DNA of 20,331 bases, taken from the IMG/VR virus record IMGVR_UViG_3300032242_002760, positions 1 to 20,331 of that record. One strand, 5' to 3'. Made by a program: the position numbers and the translations under genes. Positions 2 to 15,162 of this stretch are shown piece after piece. A model generated the notes under the pieces. It was not told the origin of the DNA and made no database searches. It worked only from the letters and a program-made list of their open reading frames with translations. This stretch comes from a virus. Within the stretch, counting starts at the first letter, position 1; each line of letters starts with the position of its first letter.

Positions 2-652
2 CCGGCAAAAAAGCAACGTGTGAATATACAGGCACGCAATGCTAATCAGAAACTTTATCTCACAAAATTATACGAGGAAGCCACCAGCATAGTGCTTGCT
101 ATTGGCCCTGCTGGCACGGGTAAGACCATGTTGGCTGTGCAGTTTGGAGTTAAATTGTTTCAGGAAGGCAAAGTTGACAAGATCGTTGTGACAAGACCGG
201 CCGTCTCCGTGGACGAGGATTTAGGATTTTTGCCAGGCACGCTAAATGAAAAAATGGCGCCCTGGACACGACCTATATTTGACGTACTGGGAGAATATTA
301 TCAAACCAAAGAAATAGCCAAGATGCTAGAGGAAGGTGTAATTGAAATAAGCCCATTGGCCTATATGCGCGGCCGCACATTTAAAAATGCATATATAGTT
401 GCAGACGAAATGCAAAATGCCACAGTGAACCAAATGAAAATGTTACTGACTCGTTTAGGCGAAGGCAGTAAGATGGTTGTTACCGGAGATCTAGCACAGG
501 CAGACCGAGTGAGCGATAATGGTCTGATTGATTTTTGCAATCTACTCGAAAAGAAACAATACCTGGAACATATCGATATTATCCGATTTGAATCCAAAGA
601 CATCGAACGCCATAACGCTGTGAAGGAGGTGTTAGCAGTGTATGGAGAATAA
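2..652 (+). CDS. phoH: PhoH-like P-loop ATPase, 5' truncated by the window edge
   Basis: PhoH-family ATPase, a cytoplasmic NTPase found in many marine phages; its role in infection is unresolved. The reading frame is open to the left edge: codons from base 2 (P-A-K-K-Q-R) run straight into the GTG at base 20, so that GTG is probably an internal valine and the true start lies outside the window. Counting from it, Walker A is GPAGTGKT (residues 29-36), Walker B is VADEMQN (about 127-133), and VTGDLAQ (154-160) matches the PhoH sensor region. The C-terminus has the family's F-x-x-x-D-I-x-R-H pattern. The visible 210 residues cover nearly the whole ATPase domain. It is the only plus-strand gene and converges on the DUF2061 gene. 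The name phoH does not prove phosphate regulation, and no Pho box can be assessed here. Confidence 0.93.
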   Translation, partial: PAKKQRVNIQARNANQKLYLTKLYEEATSIVLAIGPAGTGKTMLAVQFGVKLFQEGKVDKIVVTRPAVSVDEDLGFLPGTLNEKMAPWTRPIFDVLGEYYQTKEIAKMLEEGVIEISPLAYMRGRTFKNAYIVADEMQNATVNQMKMLLTRLGEGSKMVVTGDLAQADRVSDNGLIDFCNLLEKKQYLEHIDIIRFESKDIERHNAVKEVLAVYGE

Positions 653-706: not shown

Positions 707-877
707 TACTTTGTTCCAAACCAGTTCGTGTATATAATACAAAATGGTATTAATTATCATTTGTGCTACAGCAATGCTGGTAGCAAGAAACGCCTGCCCA
801 GTAATTATATAACTGATCAAAAACGTCGAACCGGAACCAATGATTCTCCAGCTTAATGTTTTTAATAATATAGTCAT
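692..877 (-). CDS. DUF2061-like small membrane protein (61 aa)
   Basis: Small integral membrane protein resembling the DUF2061 family, whose function is unknown. The sequence opens with a K-T-L-S-W-R-I-I-G motif, followed by two hydrophobic segments (about residues 12-28 and 33-50) and an L-Y-Y-I-H-E-L-V-W-N end, the usual DUF2061 pattern. The frame is open further upstream to 976, but that extension is Arg/Cys-rich and lies inside the upstream gene. The ATG at 877-875 is preferred because it overlaps the upstream stop as ATGA, a classic coupling junction, and gives a normal length for the family. Its 3' end lies in the bidirectional terminator, making it the last gene of the minus-strand run. 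Coupling to a sulfotransferase/APS kinase fusion suggests a link to sulfate or sulfated-product handling at the membrane, but that is inference. Confidence 0.8.
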   Translation of the reverse strand: MTILLKTLSWRIIGSGSTFLISYIITGQAFLATSIAVAQMIINTILYYIHELVWNKVKKGP

Positions 878-2244
878 TCCAATCCTAATTCTTTGCGAAT
901 CTTTGTGGCACTGATGTCTGTAACAGTGTCGTCGAACGTTTCTTCTCCTGCGGTATAACCCACACCCCGTCCCCACCCAATATGAACGATATTGGGTACC
1001 ACTTGTATCTCATATTGTCCTTGATATAGGGGATCTAGATCACGGCGAATAAAGCTCTTGACTTTTTCTACTTCAAATGGGTTGCTGCCTTGCCATCCTT
1101 GTACATCACGTATCTGAATAACAACCTGCCCTGTTTTCTGTAGCAGTCGTTCAAACAGCGCACGATGCCCGTCATGCCAAGGTTGCCAGCGACCCAGCAT
1201 CTGTACAGTTTCTTTCTTCCAATCAAACTTGGGTCTACGTTTGTTGGCAACAATTCTATCCGCTATGTAATCCGCCCACTTATCGGCATCTTGTTCTGTG
1301 ATACGAAAATCATAACGATTGGGTTCTTCAAACATGGCATTGGTGTCTGCGTACCTACCTTCGCGTATGGTATCTACCCAGATGATCCAATCTGCTTTAT
1401 AAATGTAACGCATTTCATCTAGAGGTGCAACAAAATCAGCAATGGCAAATTGAGTAGTACTGGAATCTGATAATTCTCGCATACGTTTACTTTGACGTAT
1501 ACGGCCTGCGTGACTGAAATCCCAGTCATTGAATTTGGCACGAACTTCGTCGGCATTCAAATGTGTGGCATTCATACGTTTTGCCAAAGCAGTGGCCAAG
1601 GTAGTTTTGCCAGCACCCGGCAAACCCATGACAAGTATCCGTTCGGCAATCAACCGGTTGGTAACGGCCGCAATGACATTGTCATAGTTTGTGGGATAAG
1701 GAGTTTTAACAACTACGGACTGCTCGGTAATTAAATCTTTTATTTGTTCGTAAGAGTAGTTCAAATTGCCAGGAGGAAAGCTGTTAAGCAGTAGATTGTC
1801 AAATTTGATCAATTTGATACAGTCGTTGATGACTGGAACGTCAATTTCCATATCAGCAGTGCTGTCGTAATCCAGCTGATCTTGTGGCACATAATGCCAC
1901 TTGTTTCTGTTGATTGCAACATAACGACTGGCAATTTGTTTTATTAGGTCTTGTCTTTTCAGCTTGATAGTAAAAAAAGTGCCATCGAATATTTTTTCCT
2001 GAAAGTCCTTGGGAAATTGTTTTACACTACTGGACATAATTTTCAGTATGTAAGAATCATTGTGTTTTGCGTTCTCTAAAAAAAGAGCCATCTCTTTGGG
2101 ATCAAAATTAGGTTCATTCCAAAAATCAATATTGGGGTGTAATTTGGATAGAAAATATCCCAGTGCTCCGCTACCACATCGAGCGGCGGACAAAATCACA
2201 ATTGGAAATTTTTTTATTGTGTATAGTTCGTGCAGTTCGGACAT
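874..2244 (-). CDS. Sulfotransferase / APS kinase-like / nucleotidyltransferase three-domain fusion
   Basis: Three catalytic-looking domains in 456 residues. Residues 1 to about 195 look like a sulfotransferase: SAARCGSGALGYFL (19-32) fits the 5'-phosphosulfate loop and KLKRQDLIKQIASRYVA (94-110) fits the 3'-phosphate-binding motif. Residues about 200-332 look like APS kinase: P-loop GLPGAGKTT (207-215), LNADEVR (229-235) in place of LDGDNVR, DFS followed by RIR (about 242-250), and FVAP in place of FISP. Residues about 345-456 are an HxGH nucleotidyltransferase: GRWQPWHDGH (351-360), SNPF, and ISATKIR (444-450), closer to NMN adenylyltransferase than to classical ATP sulfurylase. A reasonable inference is that it makes PAPS from APS and transfers sulfate to an unknown acceptor. 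The substrate of the C-terminal domain is open. Its ATG overlaps the gp44 stop (TAATG), and its stop overlaps the DUF2061 start (ATGA). Confidence 0.85.
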   Translation of the reverse strand: MSELHELYTIKKFPIVILSAARCGSGALGYFLSKLHPNIDFWNEPNFDPKEMALFLENAKHNDSYILKIMSSSVKQFPKDFQEKIFDGTFFTIKLKRQDLIKQIASRYVAINRNKWHYVPQDQLDYDSTADMEIDVPVINDCIKLIKFDNLLLNSFPPGNLNYSYEQIKDLITEQSVVVKTPYPTNYDNVIAAVTNRLIAERILVMGLPGAGKTTLATALAKRMNATHLNADEVRAKFNDWDFSHAGRIRQSKRMRELSDSSTTQFAIADFVAPLDEMRYIYKADWIIWVDTIREGRYADTNAMFEEPNRYDFRITEQDADKWADYIADRIVANKRRPKFDWKKETVQMLGRWQPWHDGHRALFERLLQKTGQVVIQIRDVQGWQGSNPFEVEKVKSFIRRDLDPLYQGQYEIQVVPNIVHIGWGRGVGYTAGEETFDDTVTDISATKIRKELGLE

Positions 2245-3149
2245 TATAAGTAACTTAATCTAATCAGTGTTGCCGCTAGGTTAATCTCTGGATCAATAAT
2301 GATACCATGATCAACTGCGCCTTGTTTGATAATAAGGATGGCCTTGTCTGGATCTTTGAACAAGCTGGCATTGTCATACAACCAGCGGAAGATATCATCC
2401 ATTTCTTCTGGACGAGCACGACCACATACCAGTTTACGTGCTTCTTGTATTTTGCCAGCTTTGAACAGCTCCACCATTTCAAGTCTGTAGTCGCTAACAC
2501 CGCTGTCCTCATCTTTGGGATTGATCAGTTTGGCATCTACACTGTTTTGTTGCACTAGGTTAATACACTTGCGCAAGTCTGGAAACACACTTTTTACATA
2601 AGTGTCCAGAGTATCCAAGTCAAACTCAATGTTTTCTTCCACTAAAATTGTGGCCACACGGGCAGTAAACTCCGTTTGATCAATGCTGGCAAAATGCATC
2701 TGTTGCAGTCTACTGTGCAATGGTGGCAAAATTCTGTTGGGGCTGTTGCAAGTTAGAATGAATCTAGCATAGTTAGAGTATTCTTCAATGATGCCTTTCA
2801 GCGAATCCTGTGCTTGTTGACTCAGGCGATCTGCTTCGTCCAGCAACACCACTTTGAATGGCCCAAACGGAATCATGCTCACAAACGGCACAATCTTTTC
2901 ACGAATAAAATCAATACCAGTTTCACGACTTGCGTTGACTTCTAACACATCAAAATCTGGAATGCCAATTTCAGCCAGCAATACTTTTGCCAGTGTGGTT
3001 TTACCAATGCCCGGACTACCGCTCAATAGCAAGTGCGGAATACTTTCTTCTTTGATCCAAGTGGTAATTTGTTTCTTTTGATTGTTGTCTCTGAATACAT
3101 AACCATCTAATGTAGCCGGTCTGTATTTTTCTACCCACAGTTCTTTCAT
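2244..3149 (-). CDS. 44: Sliding clamp loader large subunit (T4 gp44-like)
   Basis: AAA+ ATPase of the clamp-loader family, which opens the sliding clamp and places it on primer-template DNA. At 301 residues it is close to T4 gp44 (319). Visible motifs: N-terminal W-x-E-K-Y-R-P, Walker A GSPGIGKTT (44-52), Walker B VVLLDEAD (100-107), sensor 1 in LTCNSPN (Asn135), and the S-R pair of the SRC-type motif (146-147). In T4 the next gene would be the small subunit gp62, but here the sulfotransferase fusion follows with a TAATG overlap and no gp62-like gene is in the window. The start is supported by TGAGG at 3160-3156, 6 nt upstream. A sigma70-like promoter lies just upstream (3202-3174), consistent with early expression. 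Confidence 0.95.
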   Translation of the reverse strand: MKELWVEKYRPATLDGYVFRDNNQKKQITTWIKEESIPHLLLSGSPGIGKTTLAKVLLAEIGIPDFDVLEVNASRETGIDFIREKIVPFVSMIPFGPFKVVLLDEADRLSQQAQDSLKGIIEEYSNYARFILTCNSPNRILPPLHSRLQQMHFASIDQTEFTARVATILVEENIEFDLDTLDTYVKSVFPDLRKCINLVQQNSVDAKLINPKDEDSGVSDYRLEMVELFKAGKIQEARKLVCGRARPEEMDDIFRWLYDNASLFKDPDKAILIIKQGAVDHGIIIDPEINLAATLIRLSYL

Positions 3150-3173
3150 AATGTGCCTCAGTGTTGTTTTCTT

Positions 3174-3202
3174 ATTGTACAGGTGAAAACAGGCCTTGTC
3201 TA
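3174..3202 (-). promoter_or_regulatory. Sigma70-type promoter for the gp44 unit
   Basis: On the minus strand, TAGACA (3202-3197) and TACAAT (3179-3174) are separated by exactly 17 nt. Each hexamer matches the sigma70 consensus at 5 of 6 bases. Transcription would start near 3167, leaving a short leader with TGAGG (3160-3156) before the gp44 ATG at 3149. The -35 box falls in the loop of the overlapping hairpin. Confidence 0.6.
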
Positions 3203-3212
3203 GAGGCCTGTT
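3186..3212 (-). terminator. Terminator-like hairpin after groES
   Basis: AACAGGCCT (3212-3204) pairs perfectly with AGGCCTGTT (3196-3188), giving a 9-bp stem with a 7-nt loop on the minus strand, then only two further Ts before CACC. It sits about 18 nt past the groES stop. The short U-tract suggests a leaky terminator or an RNA-stabilising hairpin rather than a strict stop. Confidence 0.5.
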
Positions 3213-3229
3213 GCTCGATCAAGATAAAT

Positions 3230-3634
3230 TTAATGCTCGAAACTTGGGCGAGCAAAAGTGCTAGGATCCACAGTTGCATGTGTCACTGTGCTGTGAGCAC
3301 CGTAGATGGTTTCATTGGGCTTTTCATCAGCAACTGCCAAAATACCTTTTGGATCAGCACGACGGATAATGATATCATTGCCATCATCGTCTAACACTGT
3401 AAATCCACGACTCCACCGACCGTGTTCTAACAAAATCCACTCACCAGCTTTTACATCTTCTTGCATGGGGCCAACTGAATGAACCCGCCCCCAACGACTT
3501 TTAACACCTTCGCTTTTGCCGTCGTCACTTAGCAACACAAGACCTCCCTTGGTCACTTGCTCTCCAAAATCCATGTCTACGATAACAATATTATCGCGAA
3601 TTGGCTTGAGTTTACTTAATGCTACTTTGCTCAT
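3230..3634 (-). CDS. Phage co-chaperonin, GroES / T4 gp31-like
   Basis: GroES-type co-chaperonin (134 aa), expected to cap the host GroEL ring and help fold phage capsid protein, as gp31 does for gp23 in T4. GroES features in order: L-K-P-I-R-D-N-I-V-I-V (9-19) in place of KPLHDRVIV, a mobile-loop region ending at K-G-G-L-V-L (29-34), W-G-R-V-H-S-V-G (48-55) in place of GEVLAVG, V-K-A-G-E-W-I-L (61-68) in place of VKVGDIVIF, and a terminal D-P-K-G-I-L-A-V (94-101). About 30 residues follow the core, an extension absent from bacterial GroES. Its ATG overlaps the stop of the 84-residue gene (ATGA at 3634-3631). A terminator-like hairpin and the gp44 promoter follow it. Confidence 0.9.
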   Translation of the reverse strand: MSKVALSKLKPIRDNIVIVDMDFGEQVTKGGLVLLSDDGKSEGVKSRWGRVHSVGPMQEDVKAGEWILLEHGRWSRGFTVLDDDGNDIIIRRADPKGILAVADEKPNETIYGAHSTVTHATVDPSTFARPSFEH

Positions 3635-3885
3635 TCTTTTCCTTCCGGATCCATTGAGCTGATGTCTTTTCTGCTAAACTGTTCTGGTACATTGGCAATG
3701 ACTGGAGCAGTTTCAACTTGACGTGCAAGAATTTGTCCACCTGGGCCTAGCTTGTCTCCACGAGCATTTACGCCCATGTTGCCCACGGCCGGTGTAAGTT
3801 CGTTTTGAAGTGCTAGTTTGCCCATATCTACTTCTTTGCCTCGGGCACTGCGGTAAACCGCTCTTTGTTGTTCTTTCTGAGCCAT
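3631..3885 (-). CDS. Small hypothetical phage protein (84 aa) preceding groES
   Basis: I do not recognise a function. The 84 residues are charged and soluble, with no signal peptide or membrane segment. A central stretch reads N-E-L-T-P-A-V-G-N-M-G-V-N-A-R-G-D, followed by L-G-P-G-G-Q-I; this Gly/Asn/Arg-rich pattern resembles small conserved hypotheticals of marine T4-like phages, from memory only. The start is well supported by the best ribosome-binding site in the left region, AAGGAGAG at 3897-3890, 4 nt before the ATG. The stop overlaps the groES start (ATGA), so the two are probably translated together, suggesting a role in virion assembly or folding. The disordered-looking composition would also fit an adaptor or virion accessory protein. 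Confidence 0.75.
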   Translation of the reverse strand: MAQKEQQRAVYRSARGKEVDMGKLALQNELTPAVGNMGVNARGDKLGPGGQILARQVETAPVIANVPEQFSRKDISSMDPEGKE

Positions 3886-3889
3886 ATAA

Positions 3890-3897
3890 CTCTCCTT
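3890..3897 (-). promoter_or_regulatory. Strong Shine-Dalgarno site for the 84-aa gene
   Basis: The minus strand reads AAGGAGAG, 4 nt before the ATG at 3885. It is an unusually strong site compared with the overlapping-gene junctions around it, and it fixes the start of the 84-residue gene. Through the ATGA overlap it probably also drives groES translation. Confidence 0.75.
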
Positions 3898-3910
3898 ATT
3901 ATACTATTAC

Positions 3911-4420
3911 TTATCTCAGGAATTCCTGCCAGTCTAAATTATATTTGACCGAATCTATCTGATGTACACCCAGTAAAAACAGTACAAAACTGGCAACACT
4001 TGAACCCCTGCCTACCCCCCATACAATGCCATTTTCTTGGCAGGTATCTACAAAATGCTTGGTCCATTGTAGCAAAGGAATCATACCTCTTTCGTTGTAT
4101 GCATCCATTTCGTCTAACACACGTTGTTTTTGTTGTGCAGTGGTACATTTTGCCAAACACCACTCTTCCACATCAAAATCTTTGTATTCTGGTGGCATGA
4201 ACCAATCACTTTGCAATGCTTGATCAAAATCTTCAATGCTAATACTGTCTAATTGTTCGTTGAATTTTTGGAATGTAAATCCAGCAACATGCTCCAACTG
4301 CTCAATATCTTCAGTATAGTCTACAGTGAGATCTTTGAGGTTGGTAAGTTTTCCTTGGTATAGGAATTTGAATATATCTTGACTATTAAAAATAGGATTA
4401 CCGAATTTATCTAGGCGCAT
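3911..4420 (-). CDS. DNA polymerase III alpha-like protein lacking the catalytic aspartates
   Basis: A 169-residue protein. Its last 70 or so residues match the segment of bacterial replicase alpha subunits (DnaE/PolC) just before and at the start of the palm: helix V-L-D-E-M-D-A-Y-N-E-R-G-M, then W-G-V-G-R-G-S-S-V-A-S (134-144), then L-G-V-H-Q-I-D-S and Q-E-F-L-R at the end. In DnaE the next element is the P-D-x-D-x-D motif holding two catalytic aspartates, and this protein stops just before it, so it cannot polymerise DNA by itself. The N-terminal 90 residues show no PHP motif I can identify. I recall similar short proteins in marine T4-like phages, so it is probably a complete, retained gene rather than debris. 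A regulatory or replisome-binding role is speculation. The stop lies 25 nt before the next gene. Confidence 0.75.
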   Translation of the reverse strand: MRLDKFGNPIFNSQDIFKFLYQGKLTNLKDLTVDYTEDIEQLEHVAGFTFQKFNEQLDSISIEDFDQALQSDWFMPPEYKDFDVEEWCLAKCTTAQQKQRVLDEMDAYNERGMIPLLQWTKHFVDTCQENGIVWGVGRGSSVASFVLFLLGVHQIDSVKYNLDWQEFLR

Positions 4421-4430
4421 AGCCTACAGT

Positions 4431-4661
4431 TTAGTTTATTTTAACTAAATTGTCAATGCTTTTTTCACTTTTTTGCATCAATCTTTGCAATTGAAGCTGT
4501 CTGCGCTTGCCAATTTCTTCTTTGTAGTTTTCCAACAAACTGGAAATTTGCATTTGTACTTCAAAGTTTGAAGTCATAAAGTATTTTTTAGTGAGATCGG
4601 TAATTTTTTCTTCGATCTCACTGTCTTTTAAATTTTCAAAACTGCCTGCTAACGGGTGCAT
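4431..4661 (-). CDS. Small helical hypothetical protein (76 aa)
   Basis: Function unknown. The sequence begins M-H-P-L-A-G and is almost entirely helix-forming: L-K-D-S-E-I-E-E-K-I-T-D-L-T-K-K-Y, then a second charged helix with heptad-like leucines (L-L-E-N-Y-K-E-E-I), then Arg/Gln/Lys-rich L-Q-L-Q-R-L. A short coiled coil or a DNA- or protein-binding adaptor is plausible. It has no signal peptide or membrane segment. Its ATG shares a base with the stop of the upstream 203-residue fibre-type gene (TAATG at 4663-4659), so translation is probably coupled to that virion gene. The Pol III-like gene starts 10 nt after its stop. It may be a small assembly factor, but nothing in the sequence proves it. 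Confidence 0.7.
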   Translation of the reverse strand: MHPLAGSFENLKDSEIEEKITDLTKKYFMTSNFEVQMQISSLLENYKEEIGKRRQLQLQRLMQKSEKSIDNLVKIN

Positions 4662-5272
4662 TAATAGTATCCAACCTGTTTCATAAACACAGTGGCACCG
4701 GCATTAACAGTCCATGCTTCAATAATGGTGTATCCACCATTTGCATTCAATTGGCAAGTTGCCGGTAAAGATACTGATGTTTGTCCTGCACTGTTTTTCC
4801 AAGTTGATTCCAACTTGATCAATCCAGCATTGGATGTGCTGAATGTAACATTTCTAGTTTGTACTTGATCACCAGTCAACATCACACGAACAAGACTGAA
4901 TTGACCAGTAACTGGCCAGTTGTTAAATGTCAATGTACACGCACCGCTAGCAGTGAATTGCTGTACAGGACCGTTGTTGATATCAATAGTAGCACTAACA
5001 GCAATAGTTCCACCGTTGAAGAACACACCGTTAAATTGAACATATTTGCCGTTGTTCAAAGTAGCTCCCAGTAAATTATTTGTTGCTGGAGTAGTACTAG
5101 TGGCCAAATCAACAGTTAAAACTGTGTTGGTTTGTAATGCTGTGATTTCCGATTTGGCTGTGGCCAGCGCCGCACTGATGTTTGTGAAATTATCACGAAA
5201 CCCTTGACTGTTGTTGTCTTGGCCTGCTACTGGGTAAGTTGTGCTGATGCTTGCGAAATTTATATTGCTCAT
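4661..5272 (-). CDS. Small virion/fibre protein with the N-terminal GQDNNSQGFRDNF module
   Basis: Probable virion protein (203 aa). It opens with Y-P-V-A-G-Q-D-N-N-S-Q-G-F-R-D-N-F-T-N-I, a short N-terminal module used by marine T4-like phage fibre proteins, followed by a likely coiled coil (about residues 33-48, A-T-A-K-S-E-I-T-A-L-Q). The rest (about 50-203) is Thr/Asn/Val-rich beta sequence without obvious enzymatic motifs, ending M-K-Q-V-G-Y-Y. The coiled coil followed by beta sequence suggests a trimeric fibre or knob. Its start overlaps the stop of the peroxidase-virion gene (ATGA at 5272-5269). AGGA lies 8 nt before the ATG, and a T4-type late promoter candidate lies about 30 nt upstream, so it may be boosted independently of the giant gene before it. 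Confidence 0.75.
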   Translation of the reverse strand: MSNINFASISTTYPVAGQDNNSQGFRDNFTNISAALATAKSEITALQTNTVLTVDLATSTTPATNNLLGATLNNGKYVQFNGVFFNGGTIAVSATIDINNGPVQQFTASGACTLTFNNWPVTGQFSLVRVMLTGDQVQTRNVTFSTSNAGLIKLESTWKNSAGQTSVSLPATCQLNANGGYTIIEAWTVNAGATVFMKQVGYY

Positions 5273-8200
5273 ACGGTTATCCTATCGTTTTTGAATACTA
5301 GATATTTATCGCCTGAATAACCAGTGACATTGTCGATTATGAATCTATCCACAGTATAATCTATCACTTTGAAGTCAAACCCGCTGTATTTTATGTTTAA
5401 AATAATACTGTCTGCTGTGCCAGGTTTGCAGAAACACAGTGGAATACTAAGTGTGTACCCCAACTGTTGCTTTTCTCCTACTGGAATACTGCGCATCCAC
5501 AGGGGCAAATAGTTTCTTTCAGTCAATCCAGTACCCTTTAATCTAGTTTGCCAGTTGGTTATACTGCTGGGAAAATAGGTATCTGGACTGGGATTGCTGA
5601 CTTCATATCCTGTGCTGTCAATAGTCAGCATGGGTATATCTCTAGTATTTCTTGGATTGGGTATGCCCAAATCACTTATTTTTTGTGTATAAAAAGTAGT
5701 GCTGTTGTCTGCGGTAATCAGTTCACTTTCAGTTCCAGGAATACTTACGACCTTCAATGGCAAATGAGCACCGTTTGGCTCCATGGGATCTAGCATTTGC
5801 ACATACACAACTTCGTACACCAGTACTCCAGTGACGGGATCAAATGCTTCGGCTTTCTTGATACTACCAAATTGAAAACGTTTCTTCTTGACATTCAACC
5901 CCATTGCTCCAACATACGCACTGGCCAGCTGAGTTTGGATTCCAGCATACACCAACATTTTTAATTCACTTTGTAGGCCAAAATTCTTGTCGTTGGTTCT
6001 ATAAATACTCCCCGGAGGAAAAATTCCCGAGTTGGTGATAAAAGATTTGAATGCAGTTCTCTGGTTTGCTTTCAAATAGGGTTTGGTTATAATGTTACTG
6101 TATGCCACACTATTTGGTGTATCAACTGTGATAGTAAAATCTCTAGTGATCGAACTGTAATTAAATTGATCTCTAGCAGTAATAGTAGTAACAAACACTC
6201 TGTCAATGGTACTGGTATTATGATCGAATGTAACAGCGCCGTTGTCAAATGTTGTTAACCCTAATGCGCCTGTGCTGGCATTGTAATACTGATTTGTAGT
6301 ACCTGTAATTTCGCCGTCAAGGTTCAAAGTTAAGCCTGGAGGCAATCCATTTTTACTCACAGTTCCTTTGGCAACCAAAGTTCCCATTGTGCTATTAGCA
6401 AAACTAACACTGCTTGATGTTGCGGCAGTGACCCGCCATAATCCGTTATACCCAGACGGAACTACATTATCCACTTGTATAATATTTCCTATACCAAACG
6501 GCATAGCTGTCTGCGGATCAAAATTCAAAGTAACAGTGGCGCCATCGCCCATTGCACTGGTCACTGTTAAACTCAGTAACTGATAAATTACCACAGCATT
6601 TGGTATTGTGGTGGTAGCACTTACGGCCAAGGTACTGATATAGTTAGCCGGTACCACTCCCAAATTACCAGGAGTATTCCAATGAATAACACTGTCAATA
6701 TCTCCAATGATATTGATTGTGAATGTTTTGCTAGCGTTCAAAGTTTCAGTAATATTATTACCTAATCTGGTAGCAGTTATGGTAAATTTAAATGTCTGTG
6801 TTACAGCGGGTTGGAAAGGCACCTGTCCGTAAATAGATCCTGATGCAATATCAAAACTAACTCCGGGCGGCAGTTGGCTGAGTGATCCAATATAAAATGC
6901 AGTGGCATTGGGAATAGACATTTCCAGTGTTGTGTACAATTTTAATCTATATTGATTGTTGTATAATTTAGTGATACTTTGTATTTGATATTTGTTTTCG
7001 CCAGCATTATCAAGATAGTATTCAAGAGTAAAATATTGTCCCACTTGAGGAAATCCATCGATAACTGTGACCACCACTTGATCACCACCACATGCTAAAG
7101 TTGTCAATCCAACAGTCCTAATTGCAGGCTGGCTAATAATGATACTGTTAGAACCAGTCGCAGTGATAGTAGTTCCATCAGGAATACCTCCACCCCGAAT
7201 TGATTGACCCACGGTTAGAGATCTGGCATCAGTGACATTTGTTATGGTAGCACTGCCAGTTGTTACAGTACCAGTAACATTTATACTGATTTGATTATCA
7301 GTAGCTAACAGTTGTATAGCAGTAGCATATACTTCTTCGTTGGTGGCTTCTAATCTAAAAACAACATCAAAATTATCATACAGCACAATAGGAACAGTTA
7401 GATAATTGTTTGCTCTATAGGTGCCTAGATTGGAATTGGTAATCCATACTGGCGCTCGCAAATATGTAGCATCGCTTGAAAAACCGGATGCTACTCCGTT
7501 GAATGCTGTGTTGTCTGCACGGAATTGATCAGTACCTACTACAAATATTTTAAAAATACGTTGAGCATAACTGACTCCGTCGGTCAGTGTAACGCGGAAT
7601 TGATAGTTGGCATTGAGTGTAGTAGGTGGCGCAGTGGCCAGATTAAAGTCATAAAATACATTGTCGTATTTGTAACTGTCAAAACCATCACTTGGCAAAT
7701 TGGCAAAATCGTAGGCCACGGCATCAAAGAACGCATTGTCATAAGTACCATTGCCATCTGCTGGTGTAATCTTGACAACTGGTTCAATAAATCCGCTGAT
7801 AACTCCACTTGGGCTTAACACAAGACCGTTTGGTAAGTCGCCATCGTCGCTGCCGATAAAATATGTTAGTGTTTGTCCAACTGCGGTGTTTAGGTCAAAT
7901 GCTTCAATCTGATAGCTTACATGAGTTTGGTCAAGCACATACAATTGATGCCCGCTGCCAATAGGCAAATTGCCCGGTGCTGAAACAAATATTGGAGGGT
8001 TAGTTCCAGTGATTGTCATGGTAAATGTACGATCGCTGATTTGTAATCCAACAGCGGCACGTATACAAAATTTATAAGTTGTATCATTGCTAACAATATA
8101 TGGACTACCAACTATTGAACTACCTTGAATTGTTAGCCCGCCTGGCAACGAACCGCTAATAACTTTATAAGATATACCAATACTATCAGTACCTGGTATA

Positions 8201-9888
8201 TTAACGCCACCCGTTCTTGCTGTAATAGTTGTAACAGTGCCGTTATATAAATCAGCACGTTCGACTGCTACAAATGCATCGGATTGCATCCTTATTGTAT
8301 CGGTATTTCTAAGAATAATATCGCTAAGTGTTGTGGCACGTAACCATTCTAAGTCACTAGCACTCCAAGGTTGATTCTCGAACCATTGACTGTCGCCATC
8401 GCGTAGTCTTGTAAACTGGTCTATAATAATCGCTTGGAAAGTAGGACCTACCATGGCAGCAGTTGCTGGAAATTCAGCTAGCCCACCTACCCATAAATCG
8501 ACTTTGTCGATGTCACCATATGCGTTTTGAAGTGCAAGTACAACAGTAGAATCTGAAGTAATCTGACTAAAACTTGTGTATGCTGGAAATCCTAATGCCA
8601 CACGCATTTGATTAAGACTTGGCAATCCTAAATCACGACCACGTTGTATATTTGTTGCCGCTAGATCTAATGCGGCCGGCGGATCGTTTAATAAATTGCG
8701 TAAGTCGTCAATGATGTATACATCTAGCTTGTTTGATATGTCACTGGCTAATTTGCGTATAAACCCGTCAGCACCGCCATTACGTTCAAACTGTGCAGGT
8801 GTTAAAAAGAAAGCCTGAGCCAATGTCAAAGACTCTAAAATATTCCCCTGTTCGTCTACACGATCTTGCGCACCTGACACAATGCTATGCCCAAACCGCA
8901 TAGCGGCCGCGGCAAATTCTATTTTAATAGTAGAATCAACAACAGGATTAAATCCTGTATACGCTGGAATATGATCGTTACCTATTACTTTAGGTAACCA
9001 TTCTTTGTAAGTAATATTTTGAAATTCAGCAATAACAATGCTACGAGCACGTTGGTATAATTGTTCACCAGTCCATGTTGGGTGTAGTACTTTTAATCTG
9101 TCTACATGCCAGTTGTGTTCACGAATAAACAATGTTTGTACACTGGACAAATCTGGATTTTCCGTTCCTCGAGGGTCGCCAAACAAAAATGATCCGTTAA
9201 CTATAGGCGCATATCGTCCATTGCTACTAGTTAATAATTTACCAGTGGTAGCAATTTGTCCACCTTCTCGTAAGTTAACTGGATTTTGAAATGGTGTAGG
9301 GCCTTGCGGTACACCTGGAGGATAAGCAACACCGTAGACTATACTACAGTCAATCCATCCAGTAACATCATTCATCGGTAGTGCAGGATGTTGTGTATCA
9401 GTACCAGTATTTGGTGCCACGGCATTTCTGTTAACTGGAATGTGACTACCGGAGCCAAACCCGTCAATGTCGCCTGCTGGAACTATTACATCGATGTTAA
9501 CTGTGCCGGGCCGAGCAAATTCTAAGTCGTGTGTTAAAAATTGACCAAATGCATACATGAATCCACTATAGCCATTGGGGTCAGGTTGGTTACCGTGGTT
9601 GATTGCATCTCTTACTACTAAGTTACTAACGGTTCGTGCATTAGGTAAATCACTACGCATCTGGTAGATACCATCTACATAACTGTTCACAGTTCCTCGA
9701 GCAAATGGCGCACCTGCGCTATTGCGTAAAGGTGCCGTAGGATGATGGTTAGTACCGTCGTAGCTTGCTGGAGGAACTCCGTTAAATGCCGCACCTGGCA
9801 CAACTGGTAGTTGTTGACTAACAGCTAGACTTTCAGGAAATGTTCCTAAACTGTATCCACTGTTCTTTGTCCAAACATTCGAAGCCAT
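5269..9888 (-). CDS. Giant virion protein: animal-type haem peroxidase plus Ig-like domains
   Basis: 1539 residues. Residues about 40-545 form an animal-type (myeloperoxidase-like) haem peroxidase domain. Distal G-Q-F-L-T-H-D-L (115-122) supplies Gln116, His120 and the calcium ligand Asp121. T-G-W-I-D-C-S (176-182) matches the calcium loop. G-D-P-R-G-T-E (237-243) gives catalytic Arg240 and haem-linking Glu243. R-F-G-H-S carries proximal His334, and A-T-N-I-Q-R-G-R-D carries its partner Asn413. About four putative Ig-like (He_PIG type) domains follow (553-629, 632-786, 812-1061, 1068-1256), with tags such as G-L-P-P-G-L-T-L and G-E-I-T-G-T; at least two appear interrupted by inserted modules. 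Residues 1262-1539 resemble the C-terminus of marine T4-like virion proteins. There is no signal peptide. It is probably a tail or baseplate-associated structural protein that may oxidise surface substrates; activity is unproven. Confidence 0.88.
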   Translation of the reverse strand: MASNVWTKNSGYSLGTFPESLAVSQQLPVVPGAAFNGVPPASYDGTNHHPTAPLRNSAGAPFARGTVNSYVDGIYQMRSDLPNARTVSNLVVRDAINHGNQPDPNGYSGFMYAFGQFLTHDLEFARPGTVNIDVIVPAGDIDGFGSGSHIPVNRNAVAPNTGTDTQHPALPMNDVTGWIDCSIVYGVAYPPGVPQGPTPFQNPVNLREGGQIATTGKLLTSSNGRYAPIVNGSFLFGDPRGTENPDLSSVQTLFIREHNWHVDRLKVLHPTWTGEQLYQRARSIVIAEFQNITYKEWLPKVIGNDHIPAYTGFNPVVDSTIKIEFAAAAMRFGHSIVSGAQDRVDEQGNILESLTLAQAFFLTPAQFERNGGADGFIRKLASDISNKLDVYIIDDLRNLLNDPPAALDLAATNIQRGRDLGLPSLNQMRVALGFPAYTSFSQITSDSTVVLALQNAYGDIDKVDLWVGGLAEFPATAAMVGPTFQAIIIDQFTRLRDGDSQWFENQPWSASDLEWLRATTLSDIILRNTDTIRMQSDAFVAVERADLYNGTVTTITARTGGVNIPGTDSIGISYKVISGSLPGGLTIQGSSIVGSPYIVSNDTTYKFCIRAAVGLQISDRTFTMTITGTNPPIFVSAPGNLPIGSGHQLYVLDQTHVSYQIEAFDLNTAVGQTLTYFIGSDDGDLPNGLVLSPSGVISGFIEPVVKITPADGNGTYDNAFFDAVAYDFANLPSDGFDSYKYDNVFYDFNLATAPPTTLNANYQFRVTLTDGVSYAQRIFKIFVVGTDQFRADNTAFNGVASGFSSDATYLRAPVWITNSNLGTYRANNYLTVPIVLYDNFDVVFRLEATNEEVYATAIQLLATDNQISINVTGTVTTGSATITNVTDARSLTVGQSIRGGGIPDGTTITATGSNSIIISQPAIRTVGLTTLACGGDQVVVTVIDGFPQVGQYFTLEYYLDNAGENKYQIQSITKLYNNQYRLKLYTTLEMSIPNATAFYIGSLSQLPPGVSFDIASGSIYGQVPFQPAVTQTFKFTITATRLGNNITETLNASKTFTINIIGDIDSVIHWNTPGNLGVVPANYISTLAVSATTTIPNAVVIYQLLSLTVTSAMGDGATVTLNFDPQTAMPFGIGNIIQVDNVVPSGYNGLWRVTAATSSSVSFANSTMGTLVAKGTVSKNGLPPGLTLNLDGEITGTTNQYYNASTGALGLTTFDNGAVTFDHNTSTIDRVFVTTITARDQFNYSSITRDFTITVDTPNSVAYSNIITKPYLKANQRTAFKSFITNSGIFPPGSIYRTNDKNFGLQSELKMLVYAGIQTQLASAYVGAMGLNVKKKRFQFGSIKKAEAFDPVTGVLVYEVVYVQMLDPMEPNGAHLPLKVVSIPGTESELITADNSTTFYTQKISDLGIPNPRNTRDIPMLTIDSTGYEVSNPSPDTYFPSSITNWQTRLKGTGLTERNYLPLWMRSIPVGEKQQLGYTLSIPLCFCKPGTADSIILNIKYSGFDFKVIDYTVDRFIIDNVTGYSGDKYLVFKNDRITV
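5303..5310 (-). promoter_or_regulatory. Candidate T4-type late promoter GATAAATA
   Basis: The minus strand reads GATAAATA (5310-5303), one base away from the T4 late consensus TATAAATA. It lies inside the 3' end of the 1539-residue gene, about 30 nt ahead of the ATG at 5272, with AGGA between them. A late promoter here would suit a virion gene. Eight-base AT-rich matches also occur by chance, so this is tentative. Confidence 0.35.
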
Positions 9889-9892
9889 TAGA

Positions 9893-10594
9893 TTAGAATC
9901 CGGTTAAATTGGTAATATCAAATCCGCCAGCATTAGTAGCTGGGTTTGCACCTACGTCAACAGTGGGAGCAGAGTATAAGGCCATCCAAGGATTTCCGTT
10001 AATTCTAAACCACATTTTTTTATTTGCTTGGTCAACTGCTACATCGATAATATCATTGGGATTGTATATTCTAGCTTTTCTCGTTACAGCACTAAAGTCT
10101 TCAACAACACCACCCGAACCAGCAATGATAGTTCTACCGTCATCATAAAGACCTGCACCATAATTGGCGGCAATATTTCCGCCAGAGCCGGGCCATTGCC
10201 CTGTAGATGTAACAATCGATTGTTTAGCAACTCCAAAGATTGCATTGTCTGGTGCGGGCCACACACTAGTATAGACATACTTAAAGCTCATCATTACTTT
10301 GTCGCCGCTCTTGATTCCGTATGTGGTTGTAGTGGTATTATTATTGGTTAAAGCTCTCATTGACAAATTACCATTACTCAATGTATTACCGGTACCATTA
10401 TGTGCTGGATCAAATGTTGCTGTTGTAACTAGTGTAAAACCGCTTGGTATACTATATGCTGTGCTAGTTAGTATGTCAAACCCAAGACCAGCTCCGCTGT
10501 TAACACCAAAATTACATATTGCAAAGTAATATCCGTTGTTAGCAACTGCGGCAACTAGCTTGTGGCTAGCGTGATGCATCATAATACCAGTCAT
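9893..10594 (-). CDS. SPRY/concanavalin-like virion protein (233 aa)
   Basis: Probable fibre-associated protein with one SPRY or lectin-like beta-sandwich. After a variable N-terminus, F-T-L-V-T-T-A-T-F (53-61) begins the fold, Y-G-I-K-S-G-D-K-V-M-M-S-F (92-104) and I-F-G-V-A-K (119-124) resemble the early SPRY strands, Y-G-A-G-L-Y-D-D-G (145-153) the middle, and D-V-A-V-D-Q-A-N-K-K-M-W-F-R-I-N-G (184-200) the characteristic 'no real volume, thin ligand' SPRY strand pair. Such domains bind protein or sugar ligands and in phages usually sit on fibres. The ATG at 10594 is 1 nt from the tail-fibre stop, and its own stop is 4 nt from the next start, so it belongs to the tail operon. Start alternatives M5 or M6 are possible, because the Shine-Dalgarno (AGGA about 14 nt upstream) is poor. 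Confidence 0.72.
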   Translation of the reverse strand: MTGIMMHHASHKLVAAVANNGYYFAICNFGVNSGAGLGFDILTSTAYSIPSGFTLVTTATFDPAHNGTGNTLSNGNLSMRALTNNNTTTTTYGIKSGDKVMMSFKYVYTSVWPAPDNAIFGVAKQSIVTSTGQWPGSGGNIAANYGAGLYDDGRTIIAGSGGVVEDFSAVTRKARIYNPNDIIDVAVDQANKKMWFRINGNPWMALYSAPTVDVGANPATNAGGFDITNLTGF

Positions 10595-14449: not shown

Positions 14450-14932
14450 TTAAAAGGTTCCTAAATCGAATGGGTTTCCTAGCGGATTGCTGTAAGTTCC
14501 AAAATCGCTAATTGAATTACTAAGCAATGCTCTCACTTGGTTGTTGATGCTTCTCACATCAAGTCCCCAAACCGTTGTTTCTACATCACCTGCTCCGGTA
14601 ACAATATGACCGTTCAAGTTTAAATTTCCACCAAGCGTTGGATTAACATCTGTTAACAAAGACGTTACTTGACTGGGTGCTTGTATGTTTACAGTATTTG
14701 CAGTTGAAGTGACCACAATGCCGTTACTGCCAGTAATGCTTTTCAAAGTTAGAACGTTGTTGACTTTTGCAGAAAATATGCCTACGCCCGACCCAACATT
14801 TTGTCCAGTTGTTGCGGCCAGTTGTGTGTAAAGCTCTGCGAAATTAGATGTTACCTTGGTAAATGCGGTACGCAAGTCATCACCAGTACCGTCATTTGGG
14901 TAAATTCCTAGGTTAATCGTTTGTTGTGCCAT
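14450..14932 (-). CDS. Fibre-associated protein with N-terminal DxxRxAFxKVxxNFxELY module (160 aa)
   Basis: Probable short fibre or fibre connector. It begins M-A-Q-Q-T-I-N-L-G, then D-D-L-R-T-A-F-T-K-V (18-27) and N-F-A-E-L-Y (30-35), a module also found in the next gene upstream and, in looser form, in the 203-residue protein. A middle beta stretch N-V-G-S-G-V-G-I-F-S-A-K-V is followed by the fibre signature P-T-L-G-G-N-L-N-L-N-G-H (about 98-109), which marks a repeat unit in many T4-like fibres. It has no enzymatic motif. It ends with D-L-G-T-F. The stop is 15 nt before the 1279-residue fibre start, and the gap to the upstream gene is 29 nt. The Shine-Dalgarno is weak (GAGAA at about 10 nt). 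It probably co-assembles with the neighbouring large fibre. Confidence 0.75.
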   Translation of the reverse strand: MAQQTINLGIYPNDGTGDDLRTAFTKVTSNFAELYTQLAATTGQNVGSGVGIFSAKVNNVLTLKSITGSNGIVVTSTANTVNIQAPSQVTSLLTDVNPTLGGNLNLNGHIVTGAGDVETTVWGLDVRSINNQVRALLSNSISDFGTYSNPLGNPFDLGTF

Positions 14933-14961: not shown

Positions 14962-15162
14962 TTATAGCGCGGCTATCCTTGATTGGAAATCTGCAAAGTT
15001 AGAACTTGCCGCAACCACAGCTTTTAAACTGGTTTTGCTGATGTATTCTGGTTTGGCATACAGTTCTGTAAAGTTTGCATTTACTTTTGTAAAAGCAGTG
15101 CGAATAGGATCTCCATGCGCATCGTTTGCCGTTGTACCTACGTTGATTGTTTGTTGAGTCAT
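14962..15162 (-). CDS. Minimal fibre-module protein (66 aa)
   Basis: This 66-residue protein is little more than the N-terminal fibre module itself: M-T-Q-Q-T-I-N-V-G, D-P-I-R-T-A-F-T-K-V (18-27), N-F-T-E-L-Y (30-35), then a 31-residue helical tail. Compared with its 160-residue neighbour, the first 35 residues are near duplicates and everything downstream is missing. It could be a connector or cap that uses the attachment module alone, or a trimmed duplicate still in frame. Translation is supported by AGGGAGAG about 5 nt upstream, and its ATG overlaps the stop of the 1705-residue gene (TAATG at 15164-15160). I see no stop-codon or frameshift damage, so it is annotated as a gene. Confidence 0.65.
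   Translation of the reverse strand: MTQQTINVGTTANDAHGDPIRTAFTKVNANFTELYAKPEYISKTSLKAVVAASSNFADFQSRIAAL

Follow-up and report, generated by a model that had tools for sequence, protein, structure and literature searches.

What would a phage gain from a haem peroxidase of the animal type built into a particle-type protein? The question is raised by a stretch of viral DNA of 20,331 nucleotides (nt) (IMG/VR virus record IMGVR_UViG_3300032242_002760, positions 1 to 20,331; the whole stretch is called the window here), in which one open reading frame (ORF) with zero internal stops joins such a domain to immunoglobulin-like (Ig-like) domains and a C-terminus of the virion type. The answer argued here is a peroxidase that can be swapped in and out, is probably active and is probably carried on the surface of a jumbo-phage particle; we regard this explanation, taken in full, as moderately likely. 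The protein is made up as follows (aa, amino acids).

5269..9888, minus strand: whole virion-type protein with peroxidase, 1,539 aa (ORF list and Pfam)
9772..9888, minus strand: N-terminal leader, residues 1-39, about 29 of them common to peroxidase-less proteins; upstream edge of the cassette
8254..9771, minus strand: animal-type haem peroxidase domain, residues 40-545 (Pfam 42-539; Pfam and phmmer)
9529..9543, minus strand: distal site, Gln116 to Thr119-His120, with Thr in place of the haem-ester Asp
9160..9171, minus strand: catalytic Arg240 and predicted haem-ester Glu243 (alignment)
8887..8889, minus strand: proximal haem ligand His334 (alignment)
8650..8652, minus strand: Asn413, partner of the proximal His (alignment)
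6148..8205, minus strand: Ig-like (He_PIG) and linker region, matching peroxidase-less proteins from residue 562 onward
5272..6147, minus strand: C-terminal domain, conserved; 2H-phosphoesterase-like fold predicted (model, fold alignment), paired HxT/S motifs absent

Residues 42-539 matched the Pfam family An_peroxidase (PF03098) end to end (profile positions 3-530 of 530); the score was 388.9 bits, where 25 bits would suffice, and E was 4.6e-116. In the DNA the match covers 8272-9765. An original prediction, made from the sequence alone, had placed a complete animal haem peroxidase at 8254-9771 and had it fused to Ig-like domains. The family match bears out both the completeness and the span, and Pfam finds He_PIG in three stretches C-terminal of the domain, as the fusion claim implied. 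With phmmer, 64 distinct PDB sequences matched the domain at E <=0.001, the best being 8s6c (named lactoperoxidase; E 1.8e-81, residues 43-543), followed by peroxinectin A (6erc), then DUOX, myeloperoxidase (MPO) and lactoperoxidase (LPO), with prostaglandin synthases (PGHS) matched weakly. The protein has zero matches in NCBIfam and in PHROGs. It lacks a signal peptide, as predicted, but this is not specific to phage, given that no obvious Sec signal is seen at the start of the nearest bacterial relatives either (judged by eye).

All of the catalytic residues named in the original prediction are found in the window protein. Across 22 distinct phage sequences, Gln116, His120, Thr176, Trp178, Asp180, Arg240, Glu243, His334 and Asn413 are invariant where covered, Glu243 is present in 28 of 28 aligned domains (17 phage and 11 bacterial), and conservation is highest (85-88%) in residues 321-440 near the proximal site. 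Two of the named residues, however, vary among phage copies: of 17 domains, 10 have Asp and 7 have Glu as the calcium ligand at position 121, and Ser182 becomes Thr in some. Position 119, which was absent from the predicted list, is the site of the second haem-ester Asp in enzymes of the MPO/LPO type. The typical distal sequence in the superfamily is G-Q-x-x-D-H-D, the first Asp forming one of two haem esters (PMC4420034, in the text available). That of the phage proteins is G-Q-F-[LI]-T-H-[DE], with Thr119 in 17 of 17 domains, compared with Asp in 10 of 11 bacterial rows; the eleventh (L152) is badly aligned there and also lacks the Gln and the His. The phage domains have the distal G-Q-x-x-x-H, the R-x-x-E and the proximal His-Asn of the superfamily signature, and only the ester Asp differs. 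Because Thr119 replaces that Asp in all 17, they are not classed with the two-ester enzymes (family 1, MPO/LPO type). DdPoxA of Dictyostelium has Ile at the distal Asp position, a single ester to Glu and a lower reduction potential, and oxidises iodide and thiocyanate fast, with very low rates for bromide (PMC5787809, in the text available). By analogy, a single ester (Glu243 only) and chemistry of the DdPoxA type would be expected of the phage enzyme, and a single ester would favour iodide, thiocyanate or organic donors over chloride. The domain is probably active.

The form of the protein without a peroxidase is the common one. At least 585 viral stretches contain the C-terminal part; of the best 80, 72 have a complete N-terminus. 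In 66 of these the first Ig motif begins at residue 37-46; in the other 6 the peroxidase comes after the leader and the motif begins at 543-573, with none in between. In the peroxidase-less form a leader of about 29 aa, of the type M-x-L-N-V-W-T-x-P-S-G-Y, runs directly into the first Ig domain. One such protein (L032, residues 25-929) matches residues 562-1539 of the window protein at 62%, and the leaders match too. No second enzyme type was seen in this slot among the 72 complete relatives, as judged by Ig-motif position. When 20 loci with the domain were compared with 21 without it, the downstream genes were the same: a 203-aa fibre-type protein, a 76-aa protein, a 169-aa protein like the alpha subunit of DNA polymerase III (PolIII-alpha-like), an 84-aa protein, a GroES-like protein, a clamp loader and PhoH. 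The clamp loader was present in 15 of the 20 loci with the domain (the other five end earlier) and in 20 of the 21 without (L103 ends earlier).

The peroxidase is a mobile domain cassette, exchanged whole, whose boundaries fall within the leader and the first Ig domain; we conclude this because near-identical flanks differ by the domain and diverged flanks enclose peroxidase DNA that is mostly 83-100% identical. L008, which has the domain, and L081, which does not, have flanks 99.0% and 99.3% identical over 6,048 and 9,825 nt; for L082 and L085, both also without the domain, the flanks are 98.5% and 99.0% identical to L008 on one side and 99.3% on the other. The difference between L008 and these three is 1,768 bp against 166 bp and runs from codon 14 into the first Ig domain. 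No peroxidase domain turns up elsewhere in the whole records of L081 (82 kb) and L085 (120 kb). Conversely, in the pairs L006/L007, L018/L006, L003/L004 and L022/L024, DNA identity computed in 200-nt steps is mostly 83-100% in the peroxidase and 35-70% in the flanks, with exceptions in the first peroxidase step (74-76% in two pairs) and in a final step (82% in one). At the protein level, the peroxidases of L006 and L007 are 95% identical, but identity falls to 52% over the last 700 residues and to 69% for the clamp loader, and the corresponding values for L003 and L004 are 95%, 56% (C-terminal part) and 67%. In L015/L121 the order is reversed (peroxidase 82%, tail and clamp loader 89-99%), a pattern that plain descent with a faster domain would give, as would exchange. 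Among six peroxidase-less loci compared, L033, L068, L062 and L081 are the nearest backbones of the window, L003, L006 and L008, respectively.

The survey of viral genomes that the original prediction had called for brought up the same fusion repeatedly: the peroxidase domain is in 29 IMG/VR records besides the window. A scan with a single sequence gave 25 loci and a profile scan also 25, the new records being L115, L120, L121 and L125. Since several records are one phage in different assemblies (for example L006/L019/L022/L023, L008/L009, L003/L020, L015/L016 and L018/L021), distinct phages number nearer twenty. Several contigs of up to 266 kb (L017, L018, L019, L021-L025) stop inside the peroxidase domain, some at the identical residue in different assemblies; near-identical copies in different genomes may cause assemblers to break there. 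In 50,697 GenBank phage records the window domain had zero matches, as did a bacterial relative (L146) used as query. A like search of plasmids found 73 records, at identities as low as 23% among those listed, so the GenBank phage search could detect such relatives. A search of viral contigs for domains of the L027 type, a bacterial relative described below, found nothing beyond the known records. We found no earlier description of a phage haem peroxidase in a literature search that left preprints and most subscription journals outside, and the word "peroxidase" is absent from the text of a jumbo-phage survey (PMC7824862).

In bacteria, the phage profile matched 42 of 398 Pseudomonadota genomes, most weakly, and a single-sequence scan of genome contigs found one relative. 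The nearest bacterial matches, L146 and L147 (Pseudomonadota), are 45-47% identical over about 510 residues. L027, from a Rhodospirillales metagenome-assembled genome, is 43% identical to the phage domain, and its contig bears leuC-, trmD-, rpsP- and ffh-like genes (our own assignment). Each of the three is freestanding, about 670-720 aa long, and ends in an RTX-like tail. The phage domains form one clade with 100/100 support in a tree of 28 domains (17 phage and 11 bacterial), and this clade adjoins L146/L147 and L027 with 96/93 support; L027 and some other rows are long branches. The domain is under purifying selection, with a ratio of nonsynonymous to synonymous substitution rates (dN/dS) of 0.08-0.21 in the 21 of 78 pairs (13 rows) with usable dS. 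A degenerate relic is ruled out by these ratios together with the invariant site. PADLOC gave zero matches, leaving a defence-gene reading without support.

Two fusion records (223 and 165 kb, the same phage) contain gp23; among capsid proteins, its product is 73% identical to the one from Sinorhizobium phage Phosso and 68-70% identical to the ones from Vibrio phage 2.275.O, CBB and GAP32. In the other 12 of 14 records, mostly shorter fragments (G008 is 266 kb), gp23 was not found. By this marker, the fusion records lie near the Rak2-like jumbo phages of the T4 superfamily. A marine cyanophage origin is unsupported, the capsid protein being nearest to that of Phosso and then to other jumbo phages. 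The original prediction had called the C-terminus marine T4-like virion type; the relatives support virion type, but Rak2-like jumbo phage is the better name.

Atu_ph07 (AUZ95088) and Phosso (XYS97278) each have a protein with Peptidase_S8, He_PIG repeats and a homologous C-terminal domain (L133 3622-7377 and L132 3103-6966, respectively), that is, a subtilase on the same kind of Ig stalk and C-terminus. The Atu_ph07 protease is gp329, by gene count from ClpA (gp292) and DnaJ (gp293), a count that agrees at the tail fibre gp327, and its alignment to our C-terminal domain has an hhalign E of 1.3e-19 (probability 99). Coding sequences 284-329 of Atu_ph07 are one of three clusters that hold most of its 131 virion proteins detected by mass spectrometry (PMC6102473, in the text available), and gp329 is the last gene of that cluster. 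A search of viral contigs for further subtilase fusions found only Atu_ph07 itself. RaK2 ORF160 occupies the equivalent position among its neighbouring genes, and its record gives it the label "virion structural protein"; RaK2 has 54 virion proteins by tandem mass spectrometry, 28 of them unique (PMC3622015, in the text available). A 775-aa protein of K64-1 matches the C-terminal fold with a Foldseek E of 6.2e-9, and its length and place suggest that it is the counterpart of ORF160. The protein of Vibrio phage 2.275.O matches the C-terminal profile with an hhalign E of 7e-6; CBB had zero matches to the C-terminal domain. The PolIII-alpha-like, GroES-like and clamp-loader genes are matched in the corresponding regions of RaK2, Vibrio phage 2.275.O and Atu_ph07. 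By analogy with these relatives, it is likely that the peroxidase protein is on the virion.

A model of the C-terminal domain from 66 sequences had a predicted local distance difference test score (pLDDT) of 73.7 and a predicted template modelling score (pTM) of 0.69. It resembles the 2H phosphoesterases Usb1, CPDase and LigT (Z up to 11.2, root-mean-square deviation 3.4 over 171 residues). This likeness depends on a second structure aligner, because Foldseek against PDB gave no match at E <=0.001 (best 6.5e-3, Usb1), and a profile search of PDB with the C-terminus found 0 matches. 2H phosphoesterases carry two HxT/S motifs, and the pair was found in 0 of the 66 C-terminal sequences. The model suggests that this part is probably a structural domain of 2H fold that serves as an attachment part of the particle. 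In PHROGs, one of the 66 touches "virion structural protein" at E 3.7e-4 and one "head-tail adaptor" at 0.0096.

The genes around the fusion are as follows.

9893..10594, minus strand: upstream neighbour, 233 aa, with a weak match to PHROG 10080
4661..5272, minus strand: 203-aa fibre-type protein, its first 60 aa matching Atu_ph07 gp328, which adjoins the subtilase fusion gp329
2244..4661, minus strand: conserved flank, with the 76-aa protein, the 169-aa PolIII-alpha-like protein, the 84-aa protein, a GroES-like head morphogenesis protein and the clamp loader
2..652, plus strand: PhoH-like protein at the end of the conserved flank (Pfam, PHROGs)

The 169-aa protein (3911-4420, minus strand) stands alone and resembles a fragment of DNA polymerase III alpha, with a GRGSS motif seen by eye; its counterparts in RaK2 and the Vibrio phage are annotated as DNA polymerase or DNA polymerase III alpha subunit, and its place next to the virion-type protein is conserved across the loci compared. 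A 456-aa protein (874-2244, minus strand), whose gene is in only some related loci, has a P-loop kinase part (PHROG 10255) with a nucleotidyltransferase-like part after it, and its extra N-terminal part matches no family. Further upstream of the fusion, two adjacent short proteins (14450-14932 and 14962-15162, minus strand) have a common N-terminal type, TIN.G...ND..GD..RTAFTKV..NF.ELY by eye, which resembles a docking motif and is similar to the start of the 4661-5272 protein.

These observations can be joined into the following scheme. The domain of a bacterial secreted haem peroxidase would have been inserted into a particle protein, after the leader and before the first Ig-like domain; the protein would be anchored to the particle by its C-terminal domain, with the N-terminal peroxidase pointing outwards on its Ig stalk. 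The enzyme would acquire haem and calcium in the infected cell or at release, and H2O2 would drive formation of the single Glu243-haem ester. Outside the cell, the enzyme may draw on H2O2 from the surroundings or from the host and oxidise small donors near the particle, such as iodide, thiocyanate and phenolic or surface groups, most probably while the phage touches the host envelope. The cassette would enter or leave by recombination within the leader and the first Ig domain, and the locus would otherwise stay as it was. A role at host contact is preferred to one inside the cell because an optional, fast-exchanged state typifies parts that face the host or the habitat. Both the substrate and the benefit of the peroxidase are inferred. 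Several points weigh against it. An AlphaFold2 model of the peroxidase domain from 14 sequences is of low confidence (pLDDT 34.5), and the missing second ester together with the Asp/Glu swap at the calcium site could mean a weakened enzyme. The domain is dispensable for infection, as most relatives lack one. For the particle location, gp329 is not individually named in the available text of the Atu_ph07 paper (PMC6102473); RaK2 ORF160 matches the C-terminal profile weakly (hhalign E 8.6e-4, probability 24%), and its detection by mass spectrometry is taken from the record label and the available paper text (PMC3622015), not from a table.

Four other explanations were weighed. The domain might protect, removing H2O2 around the particle or the infected cell, in which case the oxidised product would be irrelevant. 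Sunlit water generates H2O2, the peroxidase site is complete, and an optional, mobile content suits a benefit that depends on habitat. Peroxidases of this superfamily, however, require a donor for turnover and are poor scavengers next to catalase, and fusion to a particle protein is an odd route to detoxification; we consider protection unlikely. It is also conceivable that the peroxidase fold is an adhesin or receptor binder in which catalysis is incidental or lost. Its location, N-terminal on an Ig stalk and encoded next to fibre genes, its exchange between phages in the manner of receptor-binding proteins and the loss of the second-ester Asp all suit such a binding module, but the distal Gln, His and Arg, Glu243 and the proximal His and Asn are invariant, and the region by the proximal site is the best conserved. 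We judge it distinctly improbable.

An auxiliary metabolic enzyme that acts inside the cell, off the particle, would account for the absent signal peptide and for PhoH and other metabolic genes close by. It is hard to square with a C-terminus that most of the viral stretches examined carry without any enzyme, or with the virion label of its RaK2 counterpart, and appears very improbable. That a bacterial gene was joined to a phage contig in assembly might be suspected from a window that is a 20-kb fragment and from contigs that break within the domain. The same in-frame fusion nevertheless recurs in many assemblies, up to 223 kb with gp23, and the phage copies form one fully supported clade; an artefact is ruled out by that recurrence, and its probability is practically nil. 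Returning to a displayed, probably active peroxidase, a broader idea can be offered tentatively, at somewhat less than an even chance: one jumbo-phage particle protein may have an exchangeable "warhead" site at its tip, of which the Atu_ph07 and Phosso subtilases would be another filling. The peroxidase, gained and lost between near-identical phages, would make the particle itself oxidising towards the host surface, by way of hypoiodite, hypothiocyanite or radicals, and would be the first oxidative virion enzyme.

Among known systems, the peroxidase-cyclooxygenase superfamily (LPO, MPO, peroxinectin and bacterial members) has the same whole domain, with the distal Gln, His and Arg, the ester Glu, the proximal His-Asn and the calcium loop T-x-W-x-D-x-S/T; the phage copy differs in sitting on a phage protein, in its Thr for the second-ester Asp and in having neither Sec signal nor RTX tail. 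DdPoxA (PDB 6erc), the second-best PDB match as peroxinectin A, likewise lacks the distal Asp (Ile there, Thr in phage), keeps the Glu and has one ester link (PMC5787809, in the text available), but it is a secreted amoebal glycoprotein. The bacterial L146, L147 and L027 are the nearest bacterial rows of the tree, but they have the ester Asp, and RTX-like C-termini instead of the virion part. Atu_ph07 gp329 and Phosso XYS97278 share the plan of N-terminal enzyme, He_PIG repeats and homologous C-terminus, and Atu_ph07 also the gene neighbourhood; they differ in that the enzyme is Peptidase_S8, not a peroxidase, and the leader is not shared. RaK2 ORF160 has the same place in the gene order and a distant C-terminal similarity, with no recognised enzyme domain. 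Virion-associated depolymerases and lysozymes of phages are also particle-borne enzymes exchanged between phages. Those are hydrolases or lyases, as are, to our knowledge, all particle-borne phage enzymes, whereas the phage peroxidase is a haem oxidoreductase; on the particle, if it is there, it would add redox chemistry to the virion repertoire and require host haem. Whole enzyme domains move between diverged jumbo phages with sharp edges, and the L008/L081 pair, with one background and one cassette different, offers a natural comparison for what this domain is for.

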